From contig JAJTHN010000025.1 of assembly GCA_021297895.1 (NCBI GenBank), positions 1 through 64,000 on the forward strand: a DNA stretch of 64,000 bases, written 5' to 3'. The notes beneath the pieces were generated by a model. It made no database searches, had not been told where the DNA came from, and saw only the letters and a list, made by a program, of their open reading frames with translations. This DNA comes from Phycisphaeraceae bacterium. Its GTDB lineage: Bacteria; Planctomycetota; Phycisphaerae; Phycisphaerales; UBA1924. This document shows positions 21,780-26,818 of this stretch, piece by piece (the stretch's first letter is position 1; every line of letters begins with the position of its first letter). The position numbers and the translations under genes were made by a program.

Positions 21780-23534
21780 GTGGGCAAGGCGGACAACGGC
21801 AGAGCAAAGGCCGACGAGCAGGCGCGGGGCGCCGGCGCGATCGTCATCGCCGATGCGAACGGCGCGGCGGGGGCGATCGAGCGTGCGCCCGAGCGAGACT
21901 GGAATCGCGTGGCCCAGCTCTTCGGCCCGCTGACACTCAAGGCCGATCAACTCAAGTCGTTCCCCGATCTGCCCGGCTCCGACACCGAGCCGTGGGACGT
22001 GCTGCTGTCGATGCTGGCGATCGATGAGCACGCGGCACTGAAGAAACTCAGCGAGCGCACCGGCCTTGCGCTGTCGATGGAGCCGAAACTCCAGGAGTCG
22101 GCGGCTCGCTTCTACGAGGTGATCCCCGGCTCGCTCGCGCGCGAGCATCAGGTCGCCGGACTCTCCAGCGATGGCGGTGTGATGCTCATCGCCACCAGCC
22201 AGCCCATGCAGCCGGCGATCTTCTCGCTGCTGGAGGACATGCTCGACATGCCGGTGCGGCTGGTGCTCGCGCCGCGCGCGGCGGTCACGAACCTCATCAA
22301 CCGCGGCTACGAGCAGAAGCAGGATCTGGTCACCGAGATCGTCGAAGAGATGCCGCTGGACGAGCAGGCCATCGCCAGCGCCGCGGGAAGCATCCGGGCC
22401 AGCAACGACCTGCTGCAACTGGCCCGCCAGACGCCCGTGATCCGTCTGGTGAACATGATCCTCTTCGAAGCCCTGCGCCGTCGGGCCAGCGACATCCACA
22501 TCCACCCCATGGAGAACAGGCTGTCGATCCGCTTCCGCATCGACGGCATGCTCAGCGAGGCCTTTGTGCCGCCGCTGAGCCTCGCGCCGGCGATCAGTTC
22601 GCGATTGAAGGTCATGACCGAACTGGACATCGCGAATCGCCACAGCCCGCAGGACGGGCACACGAACGTGCGGATCGGCTCACGCAAGATCGACATCCGC
22701 CTGTCGGTGCTGCCGAATGTCTACGGCGAGCGCATCGTTCTGCGACTGCTGGACCAGAGCCAGACTCAGCTCTCCCTCGAGCAGGTCGGCATGCTCGCGG
22801 ACATGCGCGACACGTTCACCGCGCTCATCGCTCGACCGACCGGCATCGTCCTTGTCACCGGACCCACCGGCTCGGGAAAGACCACCACGCTCTACGGTGC
22901 GCTCGGCACCATCGACCGCGGCAGCCGCAACGTGATGACCGTTGAAGACCCCGTCGAGTACCACCTGGACGGCATCAGCCAGACGCAGGTCAACGCCAAG
23001 CGGGGCGTGACCTTCGCCGCGGGGCTGCGGGCGTTGCTGCGTCAGGACCCCGACGTGATCCTCGTCGGCGAAATCCGCGACAAGGAAACAGCCGACCTGG
23101 CCACGCAGGCATCGCTCACCGGCCACCTCGTGCTCGCGACGCTGCACACCAACGATGCGCCCAGCGCCATCACCCGTCTGATCGACATCGGCATCGAGCC
23201 GTACCTGGTCACCTCCACGCTGCTGGGCGTGCTGGCCCAGCGACTCGTGCGTCGCACCTGCACCACGTGCAACGGCACCGGCAGGGCACCCGATGTTGTC
23301 GGCGAGCACCGCTGCGAGCGTTGCGGCGGGTCGGGCTTCTACGGGCGGCTCGGTGTGTTCGAGCTCATGACCATGACCGATCCGCTCCGCCGACTGGCAA
23401 GCCGACGCGCCGATGCGATGGAACTGGGCGACACCGCCAGGGCCGGCGGCATGCGCACGCTCATGGATGACGGTCAGATGAAGGTCCGGCTGAACATGAC
23501 CACGCAGGCCGAACTCGACCGCGTTCTGGGCTGA
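21780..23534 (+). CDS. gspE: type II secretion / type IV pilus assembly ATPase (GspE/PilB)
   Basis: The cytoplasmic hexameric ATPase that powers pseudopilus assembly. 584 residues; GTG start. N-terminal MshEN-like region (about 25-170), N2 domain with ASDIHIHPME and FRIDGML, Walker A GPTGSGKTTT (361-370), Asp box EDPVEYHLDGISQTQVN, Walker B ILVGEIRDKETA, and His box TGHLVLATLHTND. A tetracysteine zinc motif (CTTC...CERC, about 493-515) typical of GspE/PilB is present. Forms an operon with the secretin; the inner-membrane platform (gspF) and pseudopilins are not in this window. Confidence 0.95.
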   Translation: MGKADNGRAKADEQARGAGAIVIADANGAAGAIERAPERDWNRVAQLFGPLTLKADQLKSFPDLPGSDTEPWDVLLSMLAIDEHAALKKLSERTGLALSMEPKLQESAARFYEVIPGSLAREHQVAGLSSDGGVMLIATSQPMQPAIFSLLEDMLDMPVRLVLAPRAAVTNLINRGYEQKQDLVTEIVEEMPLDEQAIASAAGSIRASNDLLQLARQTPVIRLVNMILFEALRRRASDIHIHPMENRLSIRFRIDGMLSEAFVPPLSLAPAISSRLKVMTELDIANRHSPQDGHTNVRIGSRKIDIRLSVLPNVYGERIVLRLLDQSQTQLSLEQVGMLADMRDTFTALIARPTGIVLVTGPTGSGKTTTLYGALGTIDRGSRNVMTVEDPVEYHLDGISQTQVNAKRGVTFAAGLRALLRQDPDVILVGEIRDKETADLATQASLTGHLVLATLHTNDAPSAITRLIDIGIEPYLVTSTLLGVLAQRLVRRTCTTCNGTGRAPDVVGEHRCERCGGSGFYGRLGVFELMTMTDPLRRLASRRADAMELGDTARAGGMRTLMDDGQMKVRLNMTTQAELDRVLG

Positions 23535-23563
23535 GCGCGGTCATCGGGTCCTGATCCGTTCGC

Positions 23564-24229
23564 TCACCCTTCGTCCGGCGGCGGCGATTCCGGGCTTTCG
23601 GCCGGCACTTCGATCTTCGCGTCCTTGATGCGGCCGGCGAAGATCGTCATGGCCTGCTTGACCAGCGGGTGCTCTCGAACGATCGCGACTTCCGCGGGGT
23701 TCGGGCCGGCGGGCGCGCGGGCGCCGGACGCTGGCGCCGCGGGGCGCTGCGGGATGGACGGGCCCGCCGCGGCGGCCTCGCCGGTTGGGACAAGTCTCGG
23801 CAGCGATGAGGCCAGCGAATCATCGCGGCGGAGTTCCACCGCCGTGCCCTGGCCCGCGGCGCGCGTGGCGGCGGTGCCGAGGCGCGCGGCGAGGCCGGAG
23901 AGCAGCCGTTCGGTGCTCGCGGCGCAGGCGATAATGATCTTTCCCGGGCTCGCATCGGCGAGCCGACACTGGGTCAGCAACGCGCTCGCGCCGGGCAACG
24001 ACTCGCTCTCCTTGAGGAACCGCGCCCACAGCGTCGCGTTGTCGCCCGAAGCGGGCGCGGGCGACGGAACAGTGACCGCCTGCGCGGCGACCGTCGGCGC
24101 AATGGTGCTGGCGGTCTGAACAGGAACTCGCGGCGATGGTGCTGGCTCCGGAGAACGCGGGGGCGGGATCGTGGCGACGACCGGTCGATCGGCCGTGTCG
24201 CTGCCGCCCGTGCGATCTCCGGTCAGCGT
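23564..24229 (-). CDS. dnaX: tau-specific C-terminal part of DnaX (-1 frame extension)
   Basis: This is the part of DnaX reached only if the ribosome (or RNA polymerase) slips back one base on the A7 run at 24235-24229. Reading in the -1 frame from 24229 I find no stop until 23564: 221 codons. It has a Pro/Ala/Thr-rich linker, then NATLWARFLKESESLPG and GKIIIACAASTERLLSGLAARL, which look like the polymerase-alpha-binding domain V of tau, and finally REHPLVKQAMTIFAGRIKD, the usual DnaX end. Joined to the 398 in-frame codons before the slip, it gives a product of 619 residues, close to the 643 of E. coli tau. A separate gene starting near TTG 23998 is much less likely. Confidence 0.85.
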   Translation of the reverse strand, partial: TLTGDRTGGSDTADRPVVATIPPPRSPEPAPSPRVPVQTASTIAPTVAAQAVTVPSPAPASGDNATLWARFLKESESLPGASALLTQCRLADASPGKIIIACAASTERLLSGLAARLGTAATRAAGQGTAVELRRDDSLASSLPRLVPTGEAAAAGPSIPQRPAAPASGARAPAGPNPAEVAIVREHPLVKQAMTIFAGRIKDAKIEVPAESPESPPPDEG

Positions 24230-24246
24230 TTTTTTGCCGCGGCTCC
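24179..24246 (-). promoter_or_regulatory. programmed -1 frameshift signal in dnaX
   Basis: On the minus strand, in order: GGAG (24246-24243), 7 bases, a run of seven A (24235-24229) read as GCA-AAA-AAA, a 4-base spacer overlapping the zero-frame CGC-TGA stop, then a stem-loop. The stem pairs GACCGG (24224-24219) with CCGGTC (24184-24179) and GATCG (24217-24213) with CGATC (24191-24187), separated by a 1x2 internal loop. SD-like element, slippery heptamer, short spacer and stem match the layout known for E. coli dnaX. The zero-frame stop is 3 bases after the slippery run. Confidence 0.85.
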
Positions 24247-25422
24247 GGCGGGGCTCATGCCCGGGCGGGGCGGGATCTGCACCTGCGACGGCCCGCCCGT
24301 CGGCGCGCCCGGCGCGGCGACGCGCCCCGCGAGCATCGCCGTGACATCGGCGAACTTCTCCGCAAAGGCCAGACGCACGATCATCGCGTCGATGAGCGCC
24401 CTGGGCACGCCGGAGTTCTTCGCCGACTTGGAGATGTTCTCGACCAGCGCGATCATGTAGCTCAGCCCCGCCGCGTCGAAGCGTGCGGCCTGCTGGATTG
24501 CGACCTCGCGCCCCTCGCCCGCGAGTTCGACCATCGGCGTGTCGGTGCCGCAGGTCCGCAGCACCATCAGGTCCCGCAAGCGCTCGGCCAGCGTGGAGCA
24601 GAACAGATCGATGCCGGTGCCTTTGCGGAAGAGTTTGTCCGCGGTTTCCAGCGCTCCGCGAGGGTTCGCCTCGGCCAGCGCATCGACGAACTCGACCATC
24701 AGCGTCCGGTCGGCCAGCCCGAGCAGCCCCTCGAGCAGCGCGACGGTCAGGTGCTTCTCGCCGGAGGCCAGCAGGCGCTCGGTCAGGCTCAGCGCATCGC
24801 GCATCGATCCGTTGGCCAGGCGCGCGATCATGAGCAGCACTTCATCATCGACTCGGATGCTCTCCTGGGTGAGCACTTCGCGGAGGTGCCCGGCGATCTC
24901 GCCGGCGGAGATCGAGCGGAAGTCGAACCGCTGGCAGCGGCTCTGGATCGTCGCGGGAACTTTGTGCGTCTCGGTCGTGCAGAGGATGAACACGACGTGA
25001 TCCGGCGGCTCTTCCATGGTCTTGAGCAGCGCGTTGAACGCCGCGTTCGACAGCATGTGAACCTCGTCGACGATGTAGACCTTCTTGCGGCCGCGCAGCG
25101 GGCGGTAGCTGGCGTTGGCGATGAGTTCGCGGGCGTTGTCGACGGAGTTGTTGCTCGCGGCGTCGATCTCGATCGTGTCGGTGTCCTGGCCCATCATGAC
25201 CGCGCGGGCGATGGCGGGGTCGTTGTCGGGGTTGTTCAGCGCGTTGGCGAAGATGCGCGCGGTGCTGGTCTTGCCCACGCCGCGGGTGCCGGTGAACAGG
25301 TACGCGTGCGCAACGCGGTTCTGCGTGATGGCGGACTGAAGCGTCTGGGCGATGGCGTTCTGGCCCACCAGTTCCTGGAAGGTCCGGGACCGGTAGCGCC
25401 TCGCGAGCACGGTGTAGGTCAT
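24223..25422 (-). CDS. dnaX: DNA polymerase III subunit gamma (clamp-loader ATPase)
   Basis: The clamp-loader ATPase, 399 residues in the zero frame, comparable to E. coli gamma (431). ATG at 25422 starts the canonical MTYTVLARRYRSRTFQELVGQ. Motifs: Walker A GTRGVGKTSTARIFA (about 45-60), DEVHMLSNAAFNALLKTMEEPP (Walker B and sensor region), ATTE-like CTTETHKVPATIQSRCQRFDF, and domain III helices to about 360. The usual four zinc cysteines between Walker A and B are absent: after ANALNNPDN the sequence runs straight to DTIEIDAASNNSVDN, so the zinc module is lost. Ends in AAAKKR-stop directly after the A7 slippery run; frameshifting extends it to tau. Confidence 0.95.
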   Translation of the reverse strand: MTYTVLARRYRSRTFQELVGQNAIAQTLQSAITQNRVAHAYLFTGTRGVGKTSTARIFANALNNPDNDPAIARAVMMGQDTDTIEIDAASNNSVDNARELIANASYRPLRGRKKVYIVDEVHMLSNAAFNALLKTMEEPPDHVVFILCTTETHKVPATIQSRCQRFDFRSISAGEIAGHLREVLTQESIRVDDEVLLMIARLANGSMRDALSLTERLLASGEKHLTVALLEGLLGLADRTLMVEFVDALAEANPRGALETADKLFRKGTGIDLFCSTLAERLRDLMVLRTCGTDTPMVELAGEGREVAIQQAARFDAAGLSYMIALVENISKSAKNSGVPRALIDAMIVRLAFAEKFADVTAMLAGRVAAPGAPTGGPSQVQIPPRPGMSPAGAAAKKR

Positions 25423-25474
25423 AGGGCTAATGCTACCGCGTGAATCCGCCGGGCGGCACGCGATTTCACGGCGA

Positions 25475-26818
25475 TCAGCGAGTGCCCTCGGGCTTGGCCG
25501 GCGGCTCGCCGTTGGCGGCATCGGGGTTCATCGCCCGCACGCCCTCGAGAATCGGCTTCAGAAACGCGTCGTTGGCAAAGCCCGCGCCCTGCGGCGTGTT
25601 CTCCGCGAACCGCACGACCACGAGGTTGTACGCTGGCACGATCAGCAGTCGCTGCTTGCCGAGCCCCGCGGCCATGTACACGTCCACAGGCTTGCCATCA
25701 GGCCCGATGAGCGGCCCCGTCTGATTCGCCTGGTTTCGCAGTCGCTCGCGCGGACCGACGGATCGGCGGCCGCCCTCGTCGCCTTCCTGCCCGGCGCTGG
25801 GGTCGCGGAGCAGCCACCACGTCAGGCCGTAGTTCGGGTTGGTCGAGCTCGGCGTGAAGCACTCGCGGAGAAGCGCGGGGTCGAGATGCTGGTCGAGCGT
25901 GCCGTCGGGCTTGCGGATCGCCCCGCCAAGCCGGACGAACTCGCCGAAGGCTGCCCACTCTCGTGCGGTGAAGCGGAATCCGCCGGGGAGGTTCGGATTG
26001 CCCGCACGATCCTGCCCGATGTTCAGCCGGCCCGACGGCAGGCCGCACGGCTCGAAGATCCGGGCGTTCATGTACGAGAGCGTGGTCTTCTCCGGGCGGT
26101 CGCTCTTCTCGAGTGTGCGCTGAAGAAACTCGCCGAAGGCGTAGAAGTGTGATGAGCCGTATTCGAAGCGCTCGCCGGGGGCGTGCTTGCTGGGCACGGT
26201 GATGACATGGGCGAACTTGTCGTCAACCGACTCGCTGCCGCGGATCTGGTCCATCTTCGTGTTCCGGCCCTTGCCAAGAACGCCGCCGCCCGGCGCACCG
26301 CGGCTACCGAGTGTTGCCTCAGCGGGGTCGAGGCCGCTGGAGAGCGTGAGCAGATGGCGCACGGTGATCTTGCTCTTGCGCGGGTCGTTTTTCCATTCGG
26401 TGATCGTGTCGCTGACAACCTCGTCCAGCGATGAGATCAGACCATCTTGAATCGCGGCGATCGCGGTCACGCCGGTGAAGCTCTTGGTGCCGCTGGCCAG
26501 CGGGTGAGCGCGGCCGGCGTTCCAACCGTTGGCGTACGCCTCGTGAACGATCGCGCCGTTGACCATGATCAGCGCCGCCCGGCCCGAGAACTGCTCGGAA
26601 TACGCCGCGGCTTGTGCGAAGGCCTTGGTCGCGTCCGCGGGAATCGCAGCCGAGGTGCTGGCCGAGGTGCTGGCGGGGGTGGTGGCGGGGGTGGTGGCTG
26701 GAGTGGTGGCTGGGGTGGTGGCCGGCGCGGCATGCTGCGCCCTTGCCTGATTCGACAGCCAGCCGGAAACCAGCGTCAGCACAAGCGTTGCGATGATCGG
26801 GAGCATCGAAGGGGGCAT
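25475..26818 (-). CDS. exported serine hydrolase, class C beta-lactamase/DD-peptidase fold (paralogue)
   Basis: 447 residues from ATG 26818, with GGAGG upstream. A signal peptide (MLPIIATLVLTLVSGWLSNQ) is followed by a Thr/Ala/Pro repeat linker (about 31-56) coded by a 12-bp tandem repeat. The nucleophile motif is S109-G-T-K112 in LASGTKSFTGV, followed by DGLISSLDEVVSDTITEWK and YGSSHFYAFGEFLQ, matching the paralogue at 1887-3233 through most of its length, including the PDGKPxxVYMAAGxGKQRL segment near the C-terminus. The shared AGxGKQ in place of HTG suggests a family-specific active site. Probably periplasmic; substrate unknown. Confidence 0.85.
   Translation of the reverse strand: MPPSMLPIIATLVLTLVSGWLSNQARAQHAAPATTPATTPATTPATTPASTSASTSAAIPADATKAFAQAAAYSEQFSGRAALIMVNGAIVHEAYANGWNAGRAHPLASGTKSFTGVTAIAAIQDGLISSLDEVVSDTITEWKNDPRKSKITVRHLLTLSSGLDPAEATLGSRGAPGGGVLGKGRNTKMDQIRGSESVDDKFAHVITVPSKHAPGERFEYGSSHFYAFGEFLQRTLEKSDRPEKTTLSYMNARIFEPCGLPSGRLNIGQDRAGNPNLPGGFRFTAREWAAFGEFVRLGGAIRKPDGTLDQHLDPALLRECFTPSSTNPNYGLTWWLLRDPSAGQEGDEGGRRSVGPRERLRNQANQTGPLIGPDGKPVDVYMAAGLGKQRLLIVPAYNLVVVRFAENTPQGAGFANDAFLKPILEGVRAMNPDAANGEPPAKPEGTR
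26652..26723. repeat. 12-bp in-frame tandem repeat, 6 copies
   Basis: Six successive 12-mers of the GGGGTGGTGGCN type inside the hydrolase gene. They code an Ala/Thr/Pro/Ser linker after the signal peptide. The unit length of 12 keeps the frame, so the copy number can change without breaking the gene. The G-rich 12-mer array at 1760-1807 lies upstream of the paralogous gene. Confidence 0.85.

Follow-up and report, generated by a model that had tools for sequence, protein, structure and literature searches.

Comparative evidence for programmed -1 ribosomal frameshifting from gamma to tau in dnaX of a phycisphaeral family

The dnaX locus in the window and in its family

The window, i.e. the whole stretch of 64,000 nucleotides of DNA that was analysed, carries on its minus strand a dnaX gene which in NCBIfam was recognised by PRK05563 (410 bits) and TIGR02397 (381 bits), both above the curated cut-off. 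The zero frame of this gene at 24223..25422 closes with GCA AAA AAA CGC TGA. When the reading steps back by one base on the run of seven A (A7), the frame stays open to 23564 and a fusion of 619 aa, the size of the predicted tau, results. The two frames and the signals around the run had been proposed in an initial annotation of the DNA, and recalculation reproduced them. The gene ending, the A7, the GGAG at 7 nt, the 4-base spacer and the 46-nt hairpin were found at exactly the positions given, and the same is true for the predicted products of 399 (gamma) and 619 (tau) residues and for the 221 codons of the -1 frame to 23564. The features are:

24223..25422, minus strand: dnaX zero frame, gamma, with ATG at 25422, 399 aa plus TGA
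24243..24246, minus strand: Shine-Dalgarno-like GGAG, 7 nt 5' of the heptamer
24229..24235, minus strand: slippery heptamer A_AAA_AAA, in phase A_AAA_AAA C
24223..24225, minus strand: zero-frame stop TGA ending gamma, one codon past the heptamer, from the reading frame of the window
24179..24224, minus strand: putative stimulatory stem-loop of 46 nt after a 4-nt spacer, arms 24224-24219/24184-24179 and 24217-24213/24191-24187
23564..24229, minus strand: -1 frame, tau-specific C-terminal part, 221 codons plus TGA, from the frame and an HMM match
23819..24052, minus strand: predicted alpha/beta domain of tau, extension residues 60-137, from AlphaFold2 and a fold match

The A7 of dnaX is the sole A7 on both strands of the window. 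As 0.52 such runs are expected by shuffling, the presence of the run alone is not significant, and the locus gains its significance from conservation across the family. No Rfam model matched positions 23000-26000 of the window at E-values up to 1. On the plus strand, a gene for a GspE/PilB-like secretion or pilus ATPase (21780-23534, below curated cut-offs) is convergent with dnaX, leaving some 30 bases between its 3' end and that of the tau frame.

Families and orders are used here as the group codes of the genome collection, in which f1 is the family of the window. The family sample comprised 163 genomes, 153 of them with a dnaX match, and 143 loci were classified, several loci in one genome being counted once. 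Ten dnaX matches were left out: G055, G062, G096, G129 and G169 were either truncated ahead of the stop or of insufficient length, and the others were G008, G044, G109, G143 and G148. Gamma ends the zero frame in 135 of the classified loci, and tau is read in the zero frame in the remaining eight. Every one of the 135 zero-frame-gamma loci, which stem from 64 genera, has an in-phase X_XXY_YYZ heptamer near the stop, namely A_AAA_AAA in 117 cases (eight of them inside an A8), G_GGA_AAA in 16 and C_CCA_AAA in two. This XXXAAAA heptamer stands 7-28 nt before the zero-frame stop in all of them, with the stop zero or one codon past the heptamer in 131 loci and 18-21 nt past it in four. The A7 or A8 always starts in phase 2, and a run of nine or more A near the site was found in none of the 135. 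Upstream of the heptamer sites the same genes contain 50,558 zero-frame codons; among these an in-phase XXXAAAA is absent, and XXXAAA followed by C or G occurs in phase 11 times.

Two records of the sample deserve separate mention. Locus L166 of genome G125 is the only one of the 143 classified family loci without heptamer or long run. It has an A6 that lies 955 nt before the zero-frame stop, and its zero frame comprises 704 aa; either an assembly indel in this single-contig genome or a true loss could account for the A6. A record titled Isosphaera sp. isolate WM.009 (L076) contains a dnaX that is 68% identical to that of the window. It looks like a member of the phycisphaeral clade, and the name Isosphaera may be wrong.

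The initial annotation had also described the -1 frame as tau-like. We built an HMM from 43 zero-frame taus of the order, seven of them from the family of the window. It matched the -1 frame of the window with 37.7 bits (E 1e-10), in agreement with that description, as well as the -1 frame at 114 of the 135 loci in the family (113 when only the 127 complete extensions are counted), while none of the five other frames of the 135 loci gave a match. The 14 complete extensions to which the HMM did not match include all six examined loci of genus g24 (L022, L147, L148, L159, L161 and L162). All six carry G_GGA_AAA, their -1 frame extends over only 68-81 codons, and over the next 1000 nt the HMM found no match, whichever frame was read. 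In this genus, tau may be shortened or very divergent.

General domain collections were little informative. The extension of the window was found in Pfam only at an E-value of 0.11, and NCBIfam was of similarly little help. Among the extensions of 48 relatives, matches with E-values up to 0.01 were to DUF3646 (three), DnaX_C (two), DNA_pol3_tau_5 (one) and a DnaA_N-like family (four). AlphaFold2 predicted one confident domain in the extension at residues 61-140, with block means of pLDDT of 90-97. The best match of the predicted domain in VIA-align was DnaA domain I (Z 10.3, rmsd 2.1, 77 aligned residues); the match to E. coli tau (5fku_E; Z 6.6, rmsd 3.3, 76 aligned) may mean only a common arrangement. 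Foldseek found no match to the predicted domain at E-values up to 0.001. A profile of the extension, for which 48 of 58 listed genus representatives were aligned, was compared with solved structures and ranked DnaA first (E 0.002), with E. coli tau appearing only at E 0.65. A shared fold is no proof of function; taken together with the sequence homology, the natural reading of the -1 frame is a C-terminal part of tau.

Signals around the heptamer

GGAG was found at a spacing of 6-11 nt upstream of the heptamer in 80 of the 135 family loci, and the other bins of 6 nt contained it in 0-5 of the 135. Spacings of 7, 8, 9 and 10 nt are all common and all three codon phases are used, which favours a signal at the nucleotide level. 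With a relaxed definition of the Shine-Dalgarno (SD) site, 117 of the 135 loci were positive compared with 13 of 135 in a control stretch. GGAG at spacing 6-11 is lacking in 55 of the 135 loci and even the relaxed SD in 18. In the draft genome to which the window belongs, a search revealed no 16S gene; the same search missed it in five of 14 control genomes. The anti-SD was therefore read in five relatives, and CCTCCT was present in each of them.

For the hairpin of the window, comparison with shuffled sequences gave z-scores of -1.20 and -1.33, -1.75 for the 46-nt stretch and -2.0 as the best of three windows, values of moderate significance when taken alone. The picture is clearer across genus representatives (62-63), in which 50-nt windows starting 3-7 nt past the heptamer have mean z-scores of -1.9 to -2.1 and windows well away from it have means of -0.5 to +0.2; at offset 27 the median of -0.27 is given, the mean being spoilt by a shuffle set without variance. 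The folding signal fades 8-9 nt past the heptamer, and it does so alike in loci with the stop zero, one or more codons off (14, 115 and 4 loci), indicating that the stem takes its position from the heptamer. Applied to a single locus, the z test on 50-nt windows has little sensitivity, as the proven dnaX stem of E. coli gives values of -0.3 to +0.7 at the offsets in question and -2.33 when it is tightly cut. Compensatory changes were too few for an analysis of covariation, with one doubly changed pair, not above shuffles, in genus g59 and four consensus pairs only in genus g83. Conservation of the A7 and the stem in related genomes had been named as a check by the initial annotation, and the outcome is positive, with a heptamer in 135 of 135 loci, GGAG in 80 of 135 and a downstream mean z of about -2.

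Genes for tRNA-Lys(UUU) and tRNA-Lys(CUU) were both found in the genome of the window (among 30 of 45 tRNA matches), and tRNA-Lys(CUU) is present in 12 of 14 relatives, heptamer and long-run kinds (see below) alike. We had considered that a single tRNA-Lys might mark ribosomal shifting and two might mark slippage, and this was rejected since tRNA-Lys(CUU) occurs in those 12 of 14 genomes of both kinds. Genomes G006 and G021 (L318 and L319, both with G_GGA_AAA) have tRNA-Lys(UUU) only, among the matches listed; these are draft genomes, so that a loss is uncertain. All 135 family heptamers end in AAA, i.e. the codon in the A site is AAA and not AAG. Two lysine tRNAs have been linked with slippage in Thermus, with one of them expected to grip AAG tightly (PMC5009743). 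Genomes that have two lysine tRNAs together with a ribosomal cassette whose A-site codon is AAA would fit this reasoning. The use of AAA rather than AAG, which had struck the initial annotation as remarkable, may therefore be less odd than it appeared: both tRNAs are present and the AAA ending is a property of the whole set of 135 loci.

Long-run relatives and the history of the site

Beyond the family, the classification covered 56 loci of the order, drawn from a larger set of matched genomes; in other orders of the class Phycisphaerae (Planctomycetota), 96 genomes gave a match, of which the 30 with the best scores were examined. Runs of A9-A12 are present at 51 loci in the order, and in its other families long runs account for 46 of the 56 classified loci. 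An A9 or A10 was found at 30 of the 30 examined loci of other orders. GGAG occurs at only one of the 51 long-run loci of the order and at one of the 30 in other orders, and a stem signal is absent, the mean z just past the run being between 0 and -0.3. Each of the three phases is used as the starting point of a long run (8, 48 and 25 of 81). In a tree of 201 loci calculated with FastTree, for which one distant relative served as root, polarity flips at least nine times among 52 long-run loci compared with two flips among 145 heptamer loci. Because both stimulators are absent and all phases and polarities occur, these comparisons make RNA-polymerase slippage likely in the A9-A12 relatives.

On the same tree the family of the window forms a clade of 138 loci (support 96) which consists mostly of heptamer loci; it includes a few long-run loci, and a further one lies in the sister group. 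Heptamers turn up separately in two other families. The tree requires at least eight changes in the type of heptamer and at least nine transitions between long run and heptamer. Four loci (L149, L173, L039 and L225) combine a heptamer with the layout of E. coli: their zero frame encodes tau, and the -1 frame meets a stop after 2-8 codons. They sit in families that also hold the reversed layout and indicate that polarity changed in heptamer lineages, too.

The distribution over the tree and over the other orders is such that the direction of change seems to be from long run to heptamer. The cassette of the family would then derive from an ancestor with a run of 9-10 A and RNA-polymerase slippage, a state kept in sister families and other orders. 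We consider it probable that recoding was swapped within one order from transcriptional slippage to ribosomal -1 frameshifting, in most of the family and independently in a few other lineages. Both products would have been kept, and in most of the family the long subunit would be made by frameshifting only.

Mode of recoding and relation to known dnaX genes

We propose, with a probability of roughly 0.9, that dnaX is decoded here by programmed -1 ribosomal frameshifting of reversed polarity, in which gamma is the zero-frame product and tau arises by the shift. Ribosomes remaining in frame would add one residue past the heptamer and stop at TGA, yielding gamma. Some ribosomes would be held by contact of GGAG with the anti-SD behind and by the hairpin ahead; these would slip one base back with both lysyl-tRNAs on A_AAA_AAA, continue in the -1 frame and produce tau, which would carry a linker and a C-terminal domain of the polymerase-binding type. 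The shift would be obligatory, because tau is presumably needed for replication. The sequences themselves show the parts of the cassette and their conservation, the homology of the -1 frame, the heptamer swaps and the contrast with the long-run relatives. We infer from sequence comparison the ribosomal shift and its efficiency as well as slippage in the long-run relatives, a requirement for tau and the direction in which the site changed.

The initial annotation had treated slippage of RNA polymerase on the A7 as an equal alternative. In that case mRNA with one extra A or two fewer would give tau by normal translation. The products would be the same, the relatives with A9-A12 probably work in this way, and slippage has been argued for dnaX genes with seven to nine A (PMC3711429). 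However, 18 of the 135 family loci have G3A4 or C3A4 and thus no long homopolymer, and these swaps favour the ribosome as they keep tandem re-pairing while abolishing the homopolymer. The A7 or A8 of the family is always in phase 2, whereas long runs occur in all phases, and the SD-like site and the stem accompany heptamers but not long runs, although slippage requires neither. The heptamer swaps, the SD-like site, the stem, the fixed phase and the contrast with the long-run loci do not leave the two mechanisms on an equal footing: this comparative evidence strongly favours the ribosome over RNA polymerase in the family of the window, and slippage on the A7 is improbable.

Even less probable is re-initiation past the gamma stop at a start codon in the -1 frame, by which the tau part would be produced as a protein of its own. 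An ATG, GTG or TTG is present in the first 30 codons of 62 of the 127 complete -1 extensions, and the -1-frame ORF of the window begins at a TTG (23998), but ATG occurs in this region in only 18 of the 127, the in-phase heptamer and its swaps would have no role, and sister lineages make the same domain inside one zero-frame protein. A sequencing error or a decaying gene appears least credible of all. The genome of the window is a draft in 84 contigs, and the A6 and the 704-aa zero frame of G125 indicate that errors or losses are possible at the site. Against this stand the same layout in 135 genomes from 64 genera and a domain recognisable by HMM in the -1 frame only. The family-wide heptamer, together with its absence from the upstream codons, excludes a sequencing error as explanation for the window, and the error that the initial annotation had named as a potential refutation is contradicted by this conservation. 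Within programmed ribosomal frameshifting itself, a variant that we regard as possible, though not as the expected case, is that the shift is of low efficiency with gamma as the main product, or that gamma is dispensable and only tau is used. A_AAA_AAA is weaker than A_AAA_AAG in E. coli (PMC5009743), whereas the conservation of SD and stem points to selection for a defined efficiency.

With E. coli dnaX the locus has in common an X_XXY_YYZ heptamer, an upstream GGAG (10 nt away in E. coli, 7 nt in the window), a downstream stem-loop (at 5 and 4 nt, respectively), a stop just past the site and the pair of products, gamma and tau. The likeness to E. coli put forward in the initial annotation thus holds for the elements but not for their arrangement. 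E. coli has tau in the zero frame and the shift gives gamma (PMC5009743), whereas polarity is reversed here: the zero frame of the window stops at 399 aa, and tau needs the shift. The heptamer differs as well, being A_AAA_AAA in the window and A_AAA_AAA, G_GGA_AAA or C_CCA_AAA in the family instead of A_AAA_AAG. Thermus thermophilus dnaX, in which slippage occurs at nine A and tau is in the zero frame (PMC1088944), is similar in that an A-run in dnaX yields gamma and tau. Unlike Thermus, the window has an A7 and no run of about nine or more A, and the family combines seven A or a mixed heptamer with an SD and a stem.

The arrangement in the window, where the zero frame encodes gamma and the -1 frame the C-terminus of tau, corresponds to the two-ORF dnaX genes described by Antonov et al. 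(2013), in which recoding is needed for tau and which comprised 17 genes from 12 genera (PMC3711429). Twelve of the 17 have a poly-A of 7 to 10 and were ascribed to slippage, short runs included; a mixed direction was taken as a sign of slippage, a fixed one as a sign of ribosomal shifting (PMC3711429). Those genes, including that of Chlorobium phaeobacteroides with its A7, resemble ours in the gamma-ending zero frame and the -1 frameshift at the DNA level. The difference is that ribosomal signals and mixed heptamers here characterise a large clade. According to a 2016 review, tau is the frameshift product in fewer bacteria, and Chlorobium phaeobacteroides is named there, from unpublished work, as a candidate with E. 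coli-like signals (PMC5009743). Two-ORF dnaX genes and reversed polarity are accordingly already known (PMC3711429, PMC5009743), and taken singly the locus is of a described kind. Searches of the open-licence literature for dnaX recoding in planctomycetes and for newer surveys gave no title or abstract on the phycisphaeral clade among the matches listed. As far as literature searches go, the clade-wide ribosomal cassette with swapped heptamers and slippage-type relatives is new.

The order would provide a natural experiment on how a single site passes from slippage of RNA polymerase to slippage of the ribosome, and numerous genera represent each state. This bears on the question whether two-ORF dnaX genes with short A-runs are recoded by the ribosome or by RNA polymerase, and the G_GGA_AAA and C_CCA_AAA heptamers are natural variants ready for testing. 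For the window and its zero-frame-gamma relatives, our results suggest that gene finders would report gamma only, and that tau would look as if it were missing from these organisms.
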